DNA of 64,000 nt, taken from NCBI GenBank assembly GCA_016342355.1, contig JAEINP010000018.1, positions 1 through 64,000 of the forward strand, given 5' to 3'. The position numbers and the translations under genes are program-made. The notes under the pieces are model-generated. The model was not told the DNA's origin and searched no databases. It worked only from the letters and a program-made list of their open reading frames with translations. The DNA is from Desulfatibacillum sp. (GTDB lineage: Bacteria; Desulfobacterota; Desulfobacteria; Desulfobacterales; Desulfatibacillaceae). Positions 936 to 9,156 of the stretch are shown here, piece after piece; the first letter of the stretch is position 1; each line of letters starts with the position of its first letter.

Positions 936-974
936 AAAAAAAATGGGGGATGTCCCACTCCCTGATTAGGGAGT
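936..974 (-). terminator. Rho-independent terminator of the aro operon
   Basis: On the minus strand the hairpin ACTCCCT-AATC-AGGGAGT includes the tyrA stop codon. It is followed by a short GC-rich element and a run of eight T (936-943). This closes the aromatic operon. Confidence 0.6.
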
Positions 975-1826
975 GAATTTCGCCAGGGTTTCCAGGCAGG
1001 CGTCGCTTTCAATCATGCCTTGCTCCGGGAAAGTCCCAAGGAAGGTGTCAATGGCTTCCATGATTCCGTTGTCGTCGCACAGGGTATCCTTCACCTGATT
1101 GGCTGAATCCAGAAATTGTCCCAACACTTCCAAAGCCATGGGATTCTTGCAGATAAGATTGCGGTAAAGCTCGGTGTCCTGGGCGAACATCCTGCCCAAA
1201 AGACCCAGTTTCAAACGAAAAATTGGCGTGGCGTAAGGCCGGATTTCCTTGGGGTCCACCCCCATCTGCTGGAGAGTCCGGCCAAAGGCGATGGTCATGA
1301 AATGGGTCAGGGCCTGGACCACTGCCATGTTGCGGTCGTGGGTGTAGCCGTCGGTGATGGTCACCACCGCCCCCTTGGCCTTAAACTGCGCCTCCAGCCA
1401 GGAAAGCCAGGGGCCTTCGCCCATGGGGCAGACGATCACGTTCTGGCCCGCCATGCCTGCGGTGCTGGGTCCAAACAGGGGATGGGTGCCGATGACCTGG
1501 GCGGTTGTGGATTCCTGCATGGCCTGGTTGATGTCGTGCTTCATGGAGCACATGTCCATGAGGAGTTGGTCCTGGTTCATCAGGGGGCCGACTTGGCGGG
1601 CCATATCGAGGGAGGCGTCCAGGGGCAGGCTGATGATCACCACTTGGCATTGCCGGGCCAAGTCCTGCCAGGCGAGTTCCGTCTTTCGCCCGGACACCAG
1701 GACCGTGTGGCCCAGGTTTTCAAAATACTTTTTGAACCACTGGCCCATCTGGCCGGTGCCTCCAATAATGCCTATGGTCGTAAACCCCGGTAATTCCACA
1801 TCCACCTCATATTCTTGTAAAATCAA
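966..1826 (-). CDS. tyrA: Prephenate dehydrogenase
   Basis: Oxidatively decarboxylates prephenate to 4-hydroxyphenylpyruvate, the committed step to tyrosine. The Rossmann dinucleotide motif GIIGGTGQMGQW lies near residues 18-30, and the conserved 'GTHPLFGPS' block lies in the middle. At about 286 residues it is a monofunctional enzyme: no chorismate mutase domain is fused (that domain is in pheA), and no clear C-terminal ACT domain is seen. The furthest possible start is a TTG at 1826, only three bases after aroC. GTG codons at 1805 and 1799 are alternatives, and no strong ribosome binding site decides. Last gene of the aro operon. Confidence 0.88.
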   Translation of the reverse strand: MILQEYEVDVELPGFTTIGIIGGTGQMGQWFKKYFENLGHTVLVSGRKTELAWQDLARQCQVVIISLPLDASLDMARQVGPLMNQDQLLMDMCSMKHDINQAMQESTTAQVIGTHPLFGPSTAGMAGQNVIVCPMGEGPWLSWLEAQFKAKGAVVTITDGYTHDRNMAVVQALTHFMTIAFGRTLQQMGVDPKEIRPYATPIFRLKLGLLGRMFAQDTELYRNLICKNPMALEVLGQFLDSANQVKDTLCDDNGIMEAIDTFLGTFPEQGMIESDACLETLAKFTP

Positions 1827-1829
1827 TTC

Positions 1830-2903
1830 TCAGGACGAAAACAACTCCAAAGCCCGCACCTGGGCTTGCCTGAGAACAAAATCCGCCAACACCAGATTGA
1901 GCATGGCCTCGCACACCACATTCACCCTTGGTATGGCCGAAATGTCGTGGCGCCCCCCCACCTGAATGGTTTCGGGCTTGCCCTCCAGGTCTACGGTCTG
2001 CTGGGGAACATTGATGGAAGGAATAGGCTTGACCGCCACCCGAACCACTATATCCTGCCCGCTGGAAATGCCCGCCAAAGTTCCTCCGGCATTGTTGCTT
2101 TCAAAGCCGCTTTCCAGGATGGGATCGTTGTTGGTGGAGCCAGTCAGGCGCGCTGCTTCAAAACCCGCGCCAATTTCCACGCCCTTGACTGCGCCGATGC
2201 TCATCATGGCCTTGGCGATATCGGCGTCCAGCTTGTCAAAAACCGGCTCACCCAGGCCAACAGGAACCCCGGTGGCCTGCACCTGGACAATACCGCCCAA
2301 AGAGTCGCCGTCCTTGCGCACTTCTTCAACCCGGACAGCCATTTTTTCAGCAGCAGCCATGTCCGGACAGGCAAAGGGATTTTGCGAAATAACGTCCATA
2401 TCCAGTTTTTTGGCCCGGACGCTCCCCAGTTCCAACGTAAAGGCGCTCACCTGAATCCCCACACGTTTGAGGATCAACCCGGCTACGGCGCCAGCGGCCA
2501 CCCTGCCCACGGTCTCGCGGGCCGAAGCCCTGCCGCCGCCCTTGTAATCACGGACTCCATATTTTTTCTGATACGAAATATCCCCATGGCCCGGCCTGTA
2601 AAGGTTCTTTATTGTACTATACGAAGCGGACTTGGCGTCCTTGTTTTTGACCATCAGACAAATGGGAGTTCCGGTGGTCTGGCCTTCAAATACCCCGGAA
2701 AGAATATGCACGATATCCTCTTCCTTGCGGGGGGTGCTGGCTGCGGAAGAGCCTGGCTTGCGCCGGTCCATCATGATTTGGATATCCTCCTCGCACAAGG
2801 GGATTCCCGGGGGGCATCCATCGATAACTGCTCCCACTGCGGGACCGTGGGACTCCCCCCAGGTGGTCACCCGAAAGGCCGTCCCAAATGTGTTTCCTGC
2901 CAT
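1830..2903 (-). CDS. aroC: Chorismate synthase
   Basis: Converts 5-enolpyruvylshikimate-3-phosphate (EPSP) to chorismate using reduced FMN. The N-terminus '[18 protein letters not shown]' is the family signature, and 'RPGHGD' and '[10 protein letters not shown]' follow. The length of 357 residues is normal. It starts three bases after aroK and ends three bases before tyrA, so the three genes are surely co-transcribed. Confidence 0.97.
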
Positions 2904-2906
2904 TCT

Positions 2907-3443
2907 TTAATCCTTTTGTATGTCCAGGTTCCCGGCCAGATCCATAATTTTCCCGCAAATCTCGTGTATGCCGGCGCCATCTGTGGCTACGGTGAGCATG
3001 GCCGCTCTTTCATACAAAGGCATGCGTTGTTCAAGCACTGTGTTGATTTCGTCCAGGACGCCCTGATCCGTAAGGGCTGGCCGTTGTGTATCTGTCTTAT
3101 CATCCTTGGCAAGACGATTGCAAATAACTTTAGAATCCGCGGTCAGCCAGACCACCAAACCAGTGTCTCGCATGGCCTGCACGTTGTCCGGGTCCAGCAC
3201 AGCCCCGCCCCCGGGAGCAACGATGTGGCCGTCCAGGGCGGACAGCCTGGCCAGAAGTTCCTTTTCCAGCCTGCGGAATTCCGGCCAACCATCCGACTCC
3301 ACAATACTGGCGATGGTCCGGCCCTGTTCCTTTTCCAGGACTTCGTCCGCGTCCACAAAAGGCTGGCCCATGGCCCGGGCCAGGGCCTTGCCCACGGATG
3401 TCTTGCCGGTCGCCCGGTATCCTACGAGGTAAATATTCGGCAT
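2907..3443 (-). CDS. aroK: Shikimate kinase
   Basis: Phosphorylates shikimate at the 3-hydroxyl with ATP. The P-loop is GYRATGKTS at residues 8-16, the shikimate-binding region has DADEVLE, and the APGGGAVL loop follows. At 178 residues it is of usual size. GAGAGG lies about nine bases upstream of the ATG. It is preceded by a 337-base gap after aroA, so this trio (aroK-aroC-tyrA) may have its own promoter or read through from upstream. Confidence 0.95.
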   Translation of the reverse strand: MPNIYLVGYRATGKTSVGKALARAMGQPFVDADEVLEKEQGRTIASIVESDGWPEFRRLEKELLARLSALDGHIVAPGGGAVLDPDNVQAMRDTGLVVWLTADSKVICNRLAKDDKTDTQRPALTDQGVLDEINTVLEQRMPLYERAAMLTVATDGAGIHEICGKIMDLAGNLDIQKD

Positions 3444-3780: not shown

Positions 3781-5040
3781 TCAATAGAACTTTTCCCATT
3801 CCCGCCAAAATCCGGGAAAGGACTTTTCCACACACGAAGGATCGTTGATGACCGTGCCGGGAGTAAGAAGCCCGGCCACGGCGAAACTCATGGCGATGCG
3901 GTGGTCGTTGTATGTGTCTATGGTGGCGCCCTTGGGTTTTCCGCCTATGATGGTCATGCCCGAATCCGTGCAGGTGGCCTGGACACCCATTTTATTGAGT
4001 TCCGTCACCACGCTAGTAATGCGGTCGCTTTCCTTGGCCTTGAGGTGGGCCACGTTTTCGATGCGGGTTTCGCCCTTGGCAAAGGCGGCCACCACAGCTA
4101 GGGTGGGGGCCACGTCGGGCATGTCGGACATGTCCACGGTGATTCCCTGGAGTTCCCGGCCGGTTATGGCCAAGCCCTCGGGGGTTTCGTCCAAACGGCA
4201 GCCCATGGATTTTAGTATGTAGGAGAAACGGCAGTCCCCTTGACACGAGGCGGAACGGGTGCCTGAAACAATAACCCTGGCCCCTGTAATGGCGGCAGCA
4301 GCCCAAAAATAGCTGGCTCCCGAAGCGTCGGCCTCCACCATATATTCTCCGGGCTGATATTGAGTCTGGCCGGGTACGGAAAACCAATTATAGCCTTCCC
4401 CTTTTACCGGAACGCCCATGGCCTGCATCACCGAAAGAGTCATGTCGATATAGGGTTTGGAAACCGGCCCTTCGGTCACGGTGATTTCCAGGCCTTCTTT
4501 GGTGTACGGGGCGATGAGAAGGAGTGCGGAAAGATATTGGCTGGATACCCCGCAATTGATGGATACCCTGCCTCCCTCAATAGCCGTGCCCTGAATCCTT
4601 ATGGGCGGACAGCCGTTGGTGGTTTCCACGGGAACACCCAGGCTTTCCAAAGACTGGGCCAAATCCAGGATTGGCCGTTCCTGCATGCGCTCGGTTCCCG
4701 TAAGGGTGTAGGTTCCTACGCCCATGGCCGCCACGGCGCACAACAGGCGGAGAGTGGTTCCCGCGTTACCCAGATGAATGGGTTCGGAATAGCGGCTGAG
4801 CTTCCCGCCCGTGCCTTCAACGAGAAAACGGTCTCCCTCGTGCCTGATGGCCGCTCCCATTTTATTGAGGCCGTCCATGGTCAGGAAGGTGTCTTCGCTG
4901 ACCAGCCCGTTCTTTATCCGGGATTCTCCGTCTGCAAGGGCCGCGCAAACAAGCATCCGGTGAGTATAGCTTTTGGAACCCGGCACCCGGGCCGTATGCT
5001 CGGTCCGGCCCATGGGCTGAATTGTAATTTGAGACTCCAT
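3781..5040 (-). CDS. aroA: 3-phosphoshikimate 1-carboxyvinyltransferase (EPSP synthase)
   Basis: Transfers enolpyruvate from PEP to shikimate-3-phosphate. It has the N-terminal 'PGSKSYTHR' substrate loop, 'GNAGTTLRLL' for PEP binding, 'KESDRI' and the C-terminal 'YNDHRIAMS'. At 419 residues it has the family length, with two inside-out alpha/beta domains expected. The serine-to-tyrosine wording of the first motif (SKSYTHR rather than DKSISHR) is a little unusual. Separated from aroE by one base. Confidence 0.95.
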   Translation of the reverse strand: MESQITIQPMGRTEHTARVPGSKSYTHRMLVCAALADGESRIKNGLVSEDTFLTMDGLNKMGAAIRHEGDRFLVEGTGGKLSRYSEPIHLGNAGTTLRLLCAVAAMGVGTYTLTGTERMQERPILDLAQSLESLGVPVETTNGCPPIRIQGTAIEGGRVSINCGVSSQYLSALLLIAPYTKEGLEITVTEGPVSKPYIDMTLSVMQAMGVPVKGEGYNWFSVPGQTQYQPGEYMVEADASGASYFWAAAAITGARVIVSGTRSASCQGDCRFSYILKSMGCRLDETPEGLAITGRELQGITVDMSDMPDVAPTLAVVAAFAKGETRIENVAHLKAKESDRITSVVTELNKMGVQATCTDSGMTIIGGKPKGATIDTYNDHRIAMSFAVAGLLTPGTVINDPSCVEKSFPGFWREWEKFY

Positions 5041-5041
5041 G

Positions 5042-5866
5042 TTACCTCTGGCCTAAAAGTGTTTCCACGGTTTCCCGCATTTGGACGACAGGGGCGTCCT
5101 TACCGGTCCACCATTCAAACTGCGATGCTCCCTGATACACGAACATGGCGATTCCGTCCACTGTGGCGCACCCGGCGTCTTGTGCGTCGGATAAAAACCG
5201 GGTCAACAAGGGACGATACACGATGTCCATAACCACCATATCTTTTTTAAAAAAAGACGCAGGCGCCGGACTCCTGGCCACATCCGGGACCATGCCCACG
5301 GAGGTGGCGTTGACCACAATCCCGCATGCCAGTTGATCCAGGGCTTCCAAGGGCTGAAAATCCACCCTCAGTTCCGCAGCCAGTGCTTCGCCTTTTTCCC
5401 GGGTTCGGTTGACAATGGTCACCTTGCCCCCCTGTTCCTTAAGCCCGTAAACAATGGCCCGGGCTGCGCCGCCCGCTCCCAGGACAACCACGTCCTTACC
5501 ATCAATGGGCGTTTTCTCCAAAATCGCCTTGACCGCCCCGGCGCAATCGGAGTTTTTCCCGGTCAAACGCCCCTGGTCATTGATGATGGTGTTGACCGCG
5601 CCCATGGCCCGGGCTGTTTCGTCCACCTCGTCCAGGTGTTCCATGACCGAAACCTTGTGGGGAATGGTTACGCTAACGCCTCCCATGTCAAAAGCCCGGA
5701 CCGCCTCCACGGCCTTCCCGATATCCTGGACGCAAAAAGCCATATAGACAGCGTTTTCGCCAATATGGGCGAATGCCCGGTTGTGCATGGCCGGGCTGAG
5801 GCTGTGGGCCACGGGATCGCCAAAGACTCCGTACAAACGGGTTTGTGCATTGATTCCGGCCATCAT
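5042..5866 (-). CDS. aroE: Shikimate dehydrogenase
   Basis: NADPH-dependent reduction of 3-dehydroshikimate. The N-terminal shikimate site is 'GDPVAHSLSPAMHN' (residues 16-29), with 'VTIPHK' carrying the catalytic lysine and 'NTDG'-like 'GKNSDCAGA'. The NADP Rossmann loop is GAGGAARAI. The length of 274 residues is normal. Its ATG overlaps the pheA stop by four bases (ATGA), so translation is coupled. Confidence 0.95.
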   Translation of the reverse strand: MMAGINAQTRLYGVFGDPVAHSLSPAMHNRAFAHIGENAVYMAFCVQDIGKAVEAVRAFDMGGVSVTIPHKVSVMEHLDEVDETARAMGAVNTIINDQGRLTGKNSDCAGAVKAILEKTPIDGKDVVVLGAGGAARAIVYGLKEQGGKVTIVNRTREKGEALAAELRVDFQPLEALDQLACGIVVNATSVGMVPDVARSPAPASFFKKDMVVMDIVYRPLLTRFLSDAQDAGCATVDGIAMFVYQGASQFEWWTGKDAPVVQMRETVETLLGQR

Positions 5867-6960
5867 GGCCTATCCCCTATGGGGTACGACCCCAACCATT
5901 TAACAAAGGAGCACAAAGTGCGCATTTTATCCACCACCTTTCGGATGGGGGCGTCCTTCATGTGCCCTTCCAGGTCCACAAAAAAGAGGTAATGCCAGCT
6001 TGCGCTTTTGGAGGGCCGCGATTCCAGCTTCACCATGTTCAGGCCCTCTTCCGAAATAGGCTGCAACACACTGTGGAGCGCCCCCGGCACATGGGGGATG
6101 GCGAACAGAAGCGAGGTTTTATCCCTGCCCGTGGGCTTCACCTTGTCCCGGCCAATCACCAAAAAGCGGGTGATGTTGGTCGTGGAGTCCTGGATGTTGT
6201 CCGCCAGGGTGTTCAGCTCATAGGTGATGGCCGCTTCCGAACTGGCGATTGCCGCGCCGCCGGGGGTGTTCAACGCCATGCGGGCCGCCTCGGAGGTGCT
6301 GGAGCATTGGTTTTGCAAAATGCCCGGCAGGTTCTTGCCTAACCATTTACGGCATTGGGCAATGGCCTGGGGATGGGAAAACACCACCATGATCTTGTCC
6401 AGGGAATCCTCGGCGGACAAGAGATCGTGACGGATGGAGGTATAAATCTCCCCGCAAATCCTCACGTCGCTTTCCTGGAACAGGTCCAGGGTCAGGTTCA
6501 CGGCCCCTTCCATGGAATTTTCCACCGGCACCACGCCAAAGGGTACTCTTCTTTTGTCCACCTCGTCGAACACATCGACGATGGTGGGCATGGGCGCAAA
6601 AGTGGTGGACCGGCCAAAATGATTCATGGCCGCTATGTGGGTAAAGGTTGCCTGGGGGCCTAAGTAAGCCACCTCCAGGGGTTGCTGGATTCTGCGGGAG
6701 GCGGCAATGATCTCCGTGTACAAAAGGCGCAGGGTTTCGTCAGGCATGGGGCCTTCGTTCAACTCCTGCAACTTGTTAAGCACGGCCCGCTCCCGTGAAA
6801 AATCCACCACAGGCATGCCCTTGCCCATTTTTATGGCGCCAATCTGCCTGGCTATGTCCAGGCGTTCATTGACCAGGGTAAGGATCTGGCGGTCGGTTTC
6901 ATTGATGGCCTGCCGCAAGGGCTCCAGGTCGGAATTACCATTGGTATTGGATGGTTTCAT
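5863..6960 (-). CDS. pheA: Bifunctional chorismate mutase / prephenate dehydratase
   Basis: Makes phenylpyruvate from chorismate through prephenate. Residues 10-90 are an AroQ-type chorismate mutase helix bundle (LRQAINETDRQIL, then ARQIGAIK). About 95-275 is prephenate dehydratase (AYLGPQATFTH, then TTNITRFLVIG with the catalytic TRF). About 280-360 is an ACT domain with PGALHSVL and LESRPSK, the phenylalanine feedback site. At 365 residues it is the standard fused form. It overlaps the upstream gene by four bases. Phenylalanine feedback is expected from the ACT motifs, in addition to the transcriptional attenuator at the operon head. Confidence 0.96.
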   Translation of the reverse strand: MKPSNTNGNSDLEPLRQAINETDRQILTLVNERLDIARQIGAIKMGKGMPVVDFSRERAVLNKLQELNEGPMPDETLRLLYTEIIAASRRIQQPLEVAYLGPQATFTHIAAMNHFGRSTTFAPMPTIVDVFDEVDKRRVPFGVVPVENSMEGAVNLTLDLFQESDVRICGEIYTSIRHDLLSAEDSLDKIMVVFSHPQAIAQCRKWLGKNLPGILQNQCSSTSEAARMALNTPGGAAIASSEAAITYELNTLADNIQDSTTNITRFLVIGRDKVKPTGRDKTSLLFAIPHVPGALHSVLQPISEEGLNMVKLESRPSKSASWHYLFFVDLEGHMKDAPIRKVVDKMRTLCSFVKWLGSYPIGDRP

Positions 6961-7949
6961 TTTTCCGTGATGGTCTCCTTGATTTTATGGCCAAAGTGCC
7001 GCCCGCCTTCCTCCAGGCTGGCCAGGACCTTGTCCCCGGGCTTGAGGGCCACTACGGAAAGGGGCTTGCCGTCCGTGGCAACCAGGCGAATGGTTTCGGC
7101 ATTCTGGCATATGGTGGTGATTTTCTGATCCCCGGCCTTGGCCGTAATGAGAAGCAAAGGCCGTTTTTCGATTTTGACCCTTCCCACCACGCCCAAGGTG
7201 CATTTGCCCTTGTAATCGGTAATCAAAATCTCGTCCCCGGCGCTGAGTTCGGCAAGATAACGGGTTTTGTTGCCCGGAACCTTGGTGTAGGCATGAACCG
7301 CCCCGGCGTTCACCCGGAACGGACGGGCCGCCACGTAAGGATTTTCTATGCTTTCCGCATGGACCAAAAACATGGCCGCCGAGGAATTGCCAACCAGCAT
7401 GCCTTCTCCGGGCTGCATGTCCGTGCAGGTATCCACACAAACCCGGTCCCCCATGCCCACAGCCTTCACTTCCACAATTTCCACCGGCGTCACGGCCACG
7501 GCCACGCCCTCCCCTTTTAAAAAGGATAGGGTGCGTTTGAGTTCCCCGGAATCGGCGGTGTCGATAAGCACGCCCCACACTCCGTGCTCCAAAATACCGA
7601 AGGCGGTCTTGGCCTCTTCCAGATTCTTTACCGGTGTAACAACCCGGGCGCCCTTGGCGATAAGATTTTCCAGGGGGATGATGCTCCAGTCCGGAGTATC
7701 CACGATGACCGGTCCCATGGCCTGGGCCTGGACTATGGCGTCCTCGTCGTCCTGGCTGGTGATGGCGATGGTGGTTAGATCCTTGCCGGGAACCATGTCC
7801 CCGTCCGCCGCAATGGTGGTGATCCGGCCCAGTTCCTTGACTTTGTCCGTGTACCCCTCGGGGACCATGAGAGCGTCCGCCCCGCCCTCCAGGGCGGTGG
7901 TTACCAGATCCTTGTTCCAGGGGTCCACTTTTACCCAAATGGCTTTCAT
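6957..7949 (-). CDS. aroB': 3-dehydroquinate synthase II (archaeal type)
   Basis: Oxidative deamination and cyclisation of 2-amino-3,7-dideoxy-D-threo-hept-6-ulosonate (ADH) to 3-dehydroquinate, the second step of the non-DAHP route known from methanogens. The 330-residue protein begins KAIWVKVDPWNK and carries the blocks 'GMGDRVCVDTCTDM', 'GEGMLVGNSSAAMFLVHAES' and 'RPFRVNAGAVHAY' typical of this family. It has no resemblance to the classical NAD-dependent AroB. It lies 15 bases after the ADH synthase gene and overlaps pheA by four bases. Confidence 0.93.
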   Translation of the reverse strand: MKAIWVKVDPWNKDLVTTALEGGADALMVPEGYTDKVKELGRITTIAADGDMVPGKDLTTIAITSQDDEDAIVQAQAMGPVIVDTPDWSIIPLENLIAKGARVVTPVKNLEEAKTAFGILEHGVWGVLIDTADSGELKRTLSFLKGEGVAVAVTPVEIVEVKAVGMGDRVCVDTCTDMQPGEGMLVGNSSAAMFLVHAESIENPYVAARPFRVNAGAVHAYTKVPGNKTRYLAELSAGDEILITDYKGKCTLGVVGRVKIEKRPLLLITAKAGDQKITTICQNAETIRLVATDGKPLSVVALKPGDKVLASLEEGGRHFGHKIKETITEK

Positions 7950-7964
7950 GACATATCCTTCCTC

Positions 7965-8759
7965 TTATAGGAGCTTCAGGGCTTCGTCCACAGAAACCTC
8001 GTCATGCACGATGGAGGAAATAGCCCGGACCATCCTTTCGGGGCTGGCATGCTGGAACACATTCCGTCCAATGGAAACGCCTGCGCCGCCCGCTTCCACG
8101 GAGCCTTTGACCATTTCCAGGATATCCCGGTCCGAATCCATCTTGGCGCCCCCGGCAATGACCACAGGAATAGCGCATCCCTGGGTTACTTCCAGAAAAC
8201 TTTCCGGAGTGCCCGTGTAAGGCACCTTCACCAAATCCGCGCCCATCTCGTGGCCCAGGCGGGCTGCATGCTTGACGTACTTGACATCGTACTCATTATC
8301 AATTTTATCGCCCCGTGGGTAGATCATGGCCAAAAGAGGCATGCCCCAGGTGCGGGCCTGGTAACTGATCTCCCCGAAATCCCTCAACATTTCCTTTTCC
8401 AGGCCGTCGCCCAGGTTCACATGGATGGATACGGCGTCCGCGCCCAGTTTGATGGCTTCTTCCATGGAACAGACAAGGGTTTTTGCATTGGGAAAGGGGG
8501 ATAAGGAGGTGGAAGCGGAAAGGTGGATGATCAGGCCGATGTCCGGCCCGTCGCCCCGGTGGCCTTCCATGACCAGCCCTTTGTGGACCACCACTCCGTT
8601 GGCGCCGCCCGCCGCGACGGAGTTGATGGCTGTTTTCATGTCCTTCAGGCCGTCAATGGGACCAACGGATATACCGTGATCCATGGGTACAAGCACGGTC
8701 CTGCGGGTTTTTCGGTTGAGAATTCGCTCCATCCTGATTTGTTTTCCAACGAAGGTCAT
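7965..8759 (-). CDS. aroA': 2-amino-3,7-dideoxy-D-threo-hept-6-ulosonate (ADH) synthase
   Basis: Class I aldolase-type enzyme that joins aspartate semialdehyde to a six-carbon ketose phosphate unit and so opens the archaeal-type shikimate route. The motif '[12 protein letters not shown]' near residue 24, 'MIYPRGDKI' with the active-site tyrosine, and '[12 protein letters not shown]' with the Schiff-base lysine are as in MJ0400-type proteins. The length of 264 residues fits. The same fold includes class I fructose-bisphosphate aldolases, but the immediate aroB' neighbour and the operon settle the choice. First structural gene of the operon, with AAAGGAG upstream of the ATG. No DAHP synthase is present in the window. 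Confidence 0.92.
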
Positions 8760-8840
8760 TTTCTTGCTCCTTTAAGAGTGGTTGCCTTCCCCGGAAAAGG
8801 GAAGGGCCATGAAGCCCATTTTCGGCTCCACAGCCCCTTA

Positions 8841-8884
8841 AAAACAAAAAAAGCCGTGGAGACTTGGTTGGTCTGCCACGGCTT
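8841..8884 (-). terminator. Attenuator terminator hairpin
   Basis: Minus strand AAGCCGTGG (8884-8876) pairs perfectly with CCACGGCTT (8859-8851) over a 16-base loop. The T-rich tract TTTTTTTGTTTTT follows. It lies 80 bases before the first operon gene, so it terminates leader transcripts rather than an upstream gene. Confidence 0.85.
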
Positions 8885-8907
8885 GGTTGTGTTTGTTGGG
8901 TTTCAGC

Positions 8908-8994
8908 TCACCCCCGCGCACCCCCGGGCAGACCGGTGCTAAAATAATAATAATAGCACTCATTGATAAAAAGTCTGCCGACGTTGGTTTTCAC
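8908..8994 (-). CDS. Aromatic operon leader peptide
   Basis: A 28-residue reading frame with a GTG start at 8994. GGAG lies eight bases upstream, and the frame ends with TGA at 8908. Residues 14-18 are four consecutive TAT tyrosine codons and a TTT phenylalanine codon, with another TTT at residue 9. It lies between a consensus promoter and an intrinsic terminator, upstream of an operon that makes Phe and Tyr. The peptide itself is expected to have no function beyond sensing charged tRNA-Tyr and tRNA-Phe. Confidence 0.78.
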   Translation of the reverse strand: MKTNVGRLFINECYYYYFSTGLPGGARG

Positions 8995-9038
8995 GAATAG
9001 GGCTCCGTTGCTGAAAAGATTTACTTCAAGTTGGCTCC

Positions 9039-9067
9039 TTGATACGGGATGCAAAATCCCTTGTCAA
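9039..9067 (-). promoter_or_regulatory. Sigma-70 promoter of the aromatic operon
   Basis: -35 TTGACA (9067-9062, perfect), 17-base spacer, -10 TATCAA (9044-9039, 4 of 6). The expected start of transcription is near 9032, about 38 bases before the leader peptide. The spacer itself is an inverted repeat GGGAT-TTTGC-ATCCC (9060-9046), which may be an operator for a repressor acting between the two hexamers. Confidence 0.7.
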
Positions 9068-9156
9068 GGGATTTTTTTGGGCCGCACAGTTATTTATCAC
9101 AAAACCGAAAGGTTTTCCTTCCCTCCGGCAATGTGTGGACCATTACGGATAACATG

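Follow-up and report, generated by a model that had tools for sequence, protein, structure and literature searches.

The locus considered here raises the question of how an aromatic amino acid operon that starts with the archaeal-type enzymes of the pathway is controlled in Desulfatibacillum sp. The window, which is the whole stretch of 64,000 nucleotides that was analysed, constitutes the first 64 kb of the 85.6-kb contig G000:C54 of the source genome (G000), and the operon lies on its minus strand in the order ADH synthase, DHQ synthase II, pheA, aroE, aroA, a 337-bp gap, aroK, aroC and tyrA. The first gene (aroA', 7965..8759) reaches 369.1 bits with TIGR01949 against a cut-off of 299.45, and the second, a 3-dehydroquinate synthase II gene (aroB', 6957..7949), reaches 511.5 bits with NF002627 against a cut-off of 392, so that the first-pass annotation was right to assign both enzymes to the ADH synthase/DHQ synthase II route. 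The chorismate mutase/prephenate dehydratase gene pheA (5863..6960), the shikimate dehydrogenase gene aroE (5042..5866), the EPSP synthase gene aroA (3781..5040) and the chorismate synthase gene aroC (1830..2903) were recognized by NCBIfam and Pfam profile searches. The shikimate kinase gene aroK (2907..3443) exceeds the cut-off of Pfam SKI and obtains a top NCBIfam score of 152.4, below the cut-off of 161; the prephenate dehydrogenase gene tyrA (966..1826) exceeds those of Pfam PDH_N and PDH_C, with no NCBIfam model above its cut-off. None of the eight genes is a trp gene, and trpD is located on a different contig of the same genome. The order of the operon is conserved in D. alkenivorans, whose ADH synthase (L011) is 92% identical to that of the window, and in G002, and aroK occupies the same position in G002 and, past an insertion, in D. 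alkenivorans, while all operon genes except aroK were detected in the G007 stretch. The insertion in D. alkenivorans (L061 8516-13025) measures about 4.5 kb and carries a Rhs-like gene, named by eye, together with others between aroA and aroK.

Upstream of the ADH synthase gene, the minus strand from 9067 to 8841 contains all the components that had been described in the first-pass annotation. The promoter TTGACA-N17-TATCAA (9039..9067, with TTGACA at 9067-9062 and TATCAA at 9044-9039) agrees with the consensus at 10 of 12 positions, is retained as TTGACA-N17-TATCAC in D. alkenivorans, and would start transcription at about 9032; a general promoter scan does not list it because that scan requires T at the last -10 position. 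In the interval between rsgA and this promoter, a terminator-like hairpin at 9104-9129 probably marks the end of the rsgA transcript. A GGAG ribosome binding site (9003..9006), which is also found 5' of the D. alkenivorans GTG, precedes a leader ORF of 28 codons (8908..8994, start GTG at 8994, stop at 8910-8908), encoding the peptide (V/M)KTNVGRLFINECYYYYFSTGLPGGARG. Four consecutive Tyr codons (8955-8944) are directly followed by a Phe codon (8943-8941), another Phe occurs at codon 9, and Trp is absent; the aromatic run is kept in relatives. Three mutually complementary segments are arranged along the leader, namely segment 1 GGCAGAC (8973..8979), segment 2 GGTCTGCC (8927..8934), which encodes Gly-Leu-Pro, and segment 3 GGCAGACC (8870..8877), which overlaps the 5' arm of terminator 1. 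The latter (8846..8884) is a perfect 9-bp 3:4 stem, AAGCCGTGG/CCACGGCTT, at 8884-8876/8859-8851, with seven T at 8852-8846. A second hairpin, which had been missed in the first-pass annotation, is situated between terminator 1 and the ADH synthase gene (8804..8837, segment 5 at 8837-8826 and segment 6 at 8817-8804) and is followed by a weak T run.

Leader-peptide attenuation is a classical mechanism, and the window element is in all likelihood (roughly 0.93) a ribosome-mediated transcription attenuator that senses a shortage of charged aromatic tRNAs. When charged tRNA-Tyr and tRNA-Phe, and in most relatives tRNA-Trp too, are ample, the ribosome would complete the leader, upon which 1:2 and then 3:4 would form and transcription would end at terminator 1. 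With uncharged tRNA, the ribosome would stall in the aromatic run, and 1:2 would be blocked because the stalled ribosome sits in that run, between segments 1 and 2; 2:3 could then form ahead of the synthesis of segment 4, and RNA polymerase would pass terminator 1. The genes downstream, in the operon as well as in related loci, encode enzymes of the aromatic pathway, which make the amino acids that would be sensed.

The folding of the leader agrees with such a choice, and the comparison of 1:2, 2:3 and 3:4 pairings that had been proposed with the first annotation bears out mutually exclusive alternatives, by folding as well as by conservation. The RNA 9010-8841 folds at -59.3 kcal/mol (z = -3.67; equally stable shuffles 0/200), and the free RNA is dominated by 1:2 (P = 0.998) and 3:4 (P = 1.000), which together represent the OFF state. 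With segment 1 masked and segment 4 not yet made, 2:3 is formed with P = 0.999, and the barrier from 2:3 to terminator 1, again with segment 1 masked, amounts to about 17.5 kcal/mol by a simple direct-path estimate, as distinct from a cotranscriptional simulation. In the interval between completion of terminator 1 and synthesis of segment 5, the equilibrium prefers 3:4 (P about 1) even with segment 1 masked; the switch must therefore be kinetic, and the near-complete 2:3 pairing before segment 4 appears, combined with the height of the barrier, makes a kinetic decision plausible. When the RNA extends to segment 6 with segment 1 masked, the minimum-energy fold is 2:3 together with 4:5. Assuming a downstream footprint of 15 nt, stalling at codon 16 or beyond already places the ribosome over part of segment 2, so that only the earlier Tyr codons of the window would leave this segment free.

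The first-pass annotation had made its reading depend on whether the aromatic run and the complementary segments are preserved in related genomes. Relatives of the ADH synthase were collected from 50 loci in named genomes, from eight of nine family genomes and from 296 phylum genomes, 78 of which have a match at 1e-85 or better. After eight duplicates had been dropped from the 145 upstream stretches, 136 were long enough for a 400-nt test, and an ORF with at least five F/Y/W per seven residues was found within 400 nt in 88 of these 136 non-identical stretches; dinucleotide shuffles yielded 3.8 and the reverse complement 5. At six or more of seven residues, the figures for the same stretches were 78 against 0.4 and 1, respectively. 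The aromatic run is thus conserved in relatives, and a chance aromatic ORF was rejected on these counts. Extending the search to 700 nt raised the number of leaders to 91 of 137 non-identical stretches, and no strong leader was present within that distance in the other 46, which comprise some incomplete stretches, some paralogs, one archaeon and many real absences. Paralogous ADH synthase genes of 50-56% identity (L002, L138, L139, L167) are devoid of a strong leader. In G340, G162, G323 and G111, a covariance model of the leader places it 1.4-2.3 kb upstream of the ADH synthase gene, with aroK-aroC or aroC intervening in G340 and G162. Promoter-like sequences upstream of the run are weakly enriched (mean best score 9.2 vs 8.1 in shuffles, 89 leaders).

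The composition of the aromatic clusters in the 91 leaders, which is F+Y+W in 64, F+Y in 26 and Y+W in one, places the window leader among the minority without Trp. Sensing of charged aromatic tRNAs, which had been proposed for Tyr and Phe, is supported by the conserved run, while the restriction to these two amino acids is wrong for most relatives (F, Y and W in 64/91). The Desulfatibacillum leader might respond to tyrosine alone, with its Phe codons being incidental; its four consecutive Tyr, one adjacent Phe, Phe at codon 9 and lack of Trp would suit this narrower response, which we nevertheless regard as rather unlikely, given that in the sister species, D. alkenivorans, the run contains F as well as Y (CYFYFYYFF) and that the operon makes both Tyr and Phe. 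The codon content points to, rather than fixes, the amino acid that would dominate the response.

Since F, Y and W interchange while the aromatic character stays, and the peptide tails vary by lineage, the codons appear to be the signal. These observations bear on the proposal of a functional small protein, rich in aromatic residues, as the product of the ORF, with the hairpins being ordinary terminators. Such a protein would account for the conservation of the ORF; what is conserved, however, is limited to aromatic character, with free exchange among F, Y and W, and lineage-specific changes in the coding tail are matched by changes in the RNA segment with which it pairs, on which grounds the small protein was rejected as scarcely credible. 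Aromatic operons of other phyla are regulated by a T-box, a riboswitch or an RNA-binding protein, and any of these might replace the translated leader here. The conserved feature is nonetheless a translated aromatic run, and no Rfam family reaches its gathering score in the window leader, the sole match in the window being a tRNA. Twenty related loci searched at E up to 0.5 gave one match above the gathering score, a tmRNA away from the leader; sub-threshold matches overlap the leader region in L020 (STnc400) and L025 (RNAIII). A T-box or riboswitch was accordingly rejected, and the whole class of alternatives, RNA-binding proteins included, is very improbable.

The ribosome-mediated attenuator is further supported by the stems, which were aligned in 42 Desulfobacterales-type leaders. 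In the 3:4 stem, 92.6% of cells are paired and seven of 12 pairs have changed on both sides, a level reached in 0/500 shuffles. The 1:2 stem is paired in 86.6% of cells as opposed to 26-51% when slid, and its covariation score was matched by 0/500 shuffles and its count of double-change pairs by 59/500. For 2:3, 83.8% of cells are paired against 33-49% when slid, and no covariation was detected within this alignment, as the score was reached by 81/500 shuffles. Segments 2 and 3 vary between lineages of the phylum yet remain matched, and the complementarity was followed in 88 leaders: the pairing of segments 2 and 3 from the same leader is stronger than the permuted one (-19.5 to -19.8 vs -15.6 to -16.6 kcal/mol) and was unmatched by 50,000 permutations in sets of 15, 28 or 54 divergent representatives. 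These greedy representatives superseded a lenient clustering (86, 1, 1) that had left three representatives and gave p = 0.16, and relatedness among the leaders remains in the figures of all shuffle and permutation tests. The segment complementarity is therefore kept in relatives, 1:2 and 3:4 by covariation and 2:3 by change in step among divergent leaders. That segment 2 falls inside the ORF partly reflects the search itself, which ran only from the middle of the run to 8 nt beyond the stop; the chosen 2:3 pairing extends past the stop in one of 88 leaders. In 88 of the 91 leaders, the stop is followed by a hairpin with a T run at no more than 62 nt, and in 81 at no more than 43 nt, terminator 1 being absent by this criterion in three. 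In seven of the 88, the first hairpin appears 46-61 nt after the stop, and in L074, L078, L086, L087 and L092 this late hairpin resembles a second terminator and 2:3 is weak.

The separate trp operons of the same genomes are likewise preceded by Trp leaders, of which 27 among 36 stretches are credible. These contain on average 3.1 Trp, 0.5 Phe and 0.4 Tyr, and Phe and Tyr occur near the Trp run in 13 and nine of the 27, respectively. In the window genome, the separate trp operon is headed by the Trp leader MNTLNKTFALNNCCWWQAWMRCVFVSGPS and tandem terminators (L099 452-541, G000:C39).

A second hairpin with a T run follows soon after terminator 1 in 48 of the 91 aro leaders and in 25 of the 27 trp leaders, and is absent by criterion in 43 of the former; its T run, weak in the window, is stronger in many relatives. 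Terminators 1 and 2 have similar 5' arms in the aro as well as the trp set, and either of these arms can therefore serve as pairing partner for the 3' arm of terminator 1. In lineages possessing the second terminator, the freed segment 4 could accordingly pair with segment 5, and 4:5 would hold terminator 1 open and at the same time pre-empt terminator 2, producing a switch with two gates, or 'domino' switch. When segment 1 is masked and the RNA reaches segment 5, mean P(4:5) is 0.72 against 0.12 for P(3:4) in the 48 aro leaders, and 0.74 against 0.13 in the 25 trp leaders. Individually, 4:5 is ahead of 3:4 in 42/48 and 21/25, and not ahead in 6/48 and 4/25; after shuffling of segment 5 and the loop, it leads only in 6/48 and 1/25. 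Even in RNA free of ribosomes, 4:5 leads in 22/48 aro and 7/25 trp leaders. The strict terminator-2 pattern has a single genome-wide match in G000 and another in its genus-mate G001, both in the aro leader, and is missing from four additional genomes, where second terminators may depart from so strict a form; a dispersed genomic repeat was rejected on the strength of these single matches.

Terminator 2 may also be nothing but a backup or leaky terminator, with attenuation itself correct and 4:5 a by-product of a shared GCCGYGG core, a reading to which we give a little under even odds. Complementarity between loci is indeed high as well (-13.7 vs -14.6 for own pairs in the aro set), and in many loci 4:5 is kept through G-U pairs instead of strict covariation. 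Own 4:5 pairing nevertheless beats the permuted one (p = 0.00095 for aro and 0.00025 for trp, with relatedness remaining in these figures), and the folding preference is abolished by shuffling of segment 5. In a swap test that controls genome composition, segment 5 was exchanged between the aro and trp leaders of one genome: over 20 genomes, own 4:5 was better in 14, equal to one decimal in three and worse in three (Wilcoxon p = 0.031), so that the balance favours own pairing even though six of 20 genomes are worse or equal. An independent strong terminator would, moreover, be expected to lower expression even under induction. On the folding models, we lean towards 4:5 acting as a lock of the ON state.

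Applied to 395 genomes of the phylum with an E limit of 0.01, the leader covariance model gave matches in 199, some of them without a close ADH synthase. The best 30 matches all have an ORF with at least five F/Y/W per seven residues, and they precede ADH synthase in 14 cases (nine of which are loci used to build the model), DAHP synthase I-beta in six, I-alpha in five, aroK-aroC in four and a periplasmic binding protein in one; TIGR00034 is taken by us to denote DAHP synthase type I-alpha and TIGR01361 type I-beta. Among the matches listed, 40 more were picked by hand, in front of DAHP synthase I-beta (17), I-alpha (3), aroK/aroC (5), binding proteins (4), ADP-forming acyl-CoA ligases (2), and one each of DHQ synthase II, tyrA, trpE, an aminotransferase, a phenylacetate-CoA ligase and a metallo-beta-lactamase-fold protein; the downstream gene is unassigned in three, one of which (L263) is without an aromatic leader.

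Codon identity tends to follow the downstream gene, as illustrated, rather than statistically established, by single cases: L254 before tyrA is a Tyr-only leader, and the one before DAHP synthase-trpEGDCFB (L257, L276; trpF under its curated cut-off) is Trp-only. Three leaders coexist in G416 (L253, L270, L273), located before DAHP synthase, before DHQ synthase II-pheA-aroE-aroA and, with Tyr alone, before tyrA. The operon of L277 consists of aroK, aroC, DAHP synthase, AroB (335.1 bits vs cut-off 305), aroE and aroA, and that of L278 of aroC, ADH synthase, pheA, DHQ synthase II and aroA; a like leader on similar operons with one route or the other implies that the leader may have survived an exchange of routes, to which a separate origin of each leader is a viable alternative.

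Several matches lie outside the biosynthetic operons. Another locus of the window genome (L252, G000:C81:13634-13506) carries the leader MSGLYFYFYFTRSAREMAR and tandem terminators before a phenylacetate-CoA ligase gene (TIGR02155, 639.8 bits, slightly below the cut-off of 646.3), downstream of which lie branched-chain-type ABC transporter genes, whose LivG and substrate-binding matches stay below cut-off, and another paaK-like gene; this arrangement suggests a salvage of aryl acids for amino acid supply. Tyr-rich leaders, one with eight consecutive Tyr, stand before ADP-forming acyl-CoA ligase-like genes in L230 and L249, and six Tyr precede the metallo-beta-lactamase-fold protein in L247. In L216, L229, L232, L258 and L260, Phe-rich leaders have periplasmic binding protein genes downstream, possibly an aromatic uptake system under attenuation. 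At L266 ~150-560 (G056:C66), two consecutive aromatic leaders with terminators, recognized by eye, are followed by a small gene ending LEYALARPV.

It seems to us an even call that these loci form a Desulfobacterota-wide aromatic regulon, in which one leader type, with Phe, Tyr and Trp codons suited to the gene, would persist through enzyme exchange (ADH synthase and DHQ synthase II vs two DAHP synthase subtypes and classical AroB), would cover the activation and uptake of aryl acids, and would commonly employ two terminators with a 4:5 lock, both opened by one antitermination event.

The first-pass annotation was not aware of attenuation described for the ADH synthase/DHQ synthase II route. 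Table 7 of a 2005 study (PMC1173090) nevertheless enters a putative attenuator, drawn from a web database of such elements, for the Desulfovibrio vulgaris supraoperon aroA'>aroB'>aroQ-pheA>aroF>tyrA>[trp], which is of the same type as the window operon and has the same first two genes; the route is consequently not wholly undescribed in this respect. In the portion of that source available, the word 'leader' is absent from the main text, and neither peptide, codons nor conservation are given for this attenuator. Table 2 of a 2009 study (PMC2700814), as far as accessible, reports conserved sequences, given without mechanism, 5' of Geobacter aroG-2 (Gmet_R0069 = GSUR082), a Thermotoga-type DAHP synthase gene, and of iorAB-paaK. 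The former presumably encodes the DAHP synthase type that many model matches precede here, an attenuator also stands before paaK in the window genome, and the Geobacter sequences may be leaders of the present kind. A literature search of partial coverage, and hence weak evidence of absence, retrieved no mixed Phe/Tyr/Trp leaders, no regulon of this composition and no coupled tandem terminators. A comparative attenuation study by Lopatovskaya, Seliverstov and Lyubetsky from 2010 may hold related predictions.

Taken as an attenuator, the element specifies how sulfate reducers and their relatives would regulate the archaeal-type aromatic pathway, and it offers a mechanism for the listed, unexplained D. 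vulgaris attenuator and possibly for the conserved Geobacter elements. It suggests that a cis-regulatory leader persisted while the entry enzymes of the pathway were replaced, and it hints, for some of the paaK, ABC-transporter and acyl-CoA ligase genes, at a role in aromatic amino acid supply in addition to catabolism. Coupled tandem terminators, if real, would represent a new way of tightening attenuation.

Among known systems, multi-amino-acid leaders are exemplified by that of ilvGMEDA. A related system is the aroF entry, 'attenuator sensing tyr-tRNA', among the Shewanella predictions in Table 3 of PMC2659441 (citing Camakaris 1980), which likewise concerns a DAHP synthase gene attenuated by charged tRNA-Tyr, but belongs to Gammaproteobacteria and is described there with neither a mixed aromatic leader nor tandem terminators. 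According to the accessible part of PMC3766115, the amino acid attenuators then in Rfam were only those of His, Leu, Thr and Trp, and others had been characterized for Ile/Val and Phe. The E. coli trp, pheA and ilvGMEDA leader-peptide attenuators, listed in the part of PMC1183508 that was available, share with the present element a leader ORF with regulatory codons, the 1:2/2:3/3:4 alternatives and an intrinsic terminator before the cognate operon. Unlike them, the leaders described here occur in another phylum, have no Rfam match, mix Phe, Tyr and Trp codons on the common aromatic pathway, and often possess a second terminator able to pair with the first. The principle of the element is an ordinary one, yet its distribution is wide, it is of the multi-amino-acid kind and it may have two gates.
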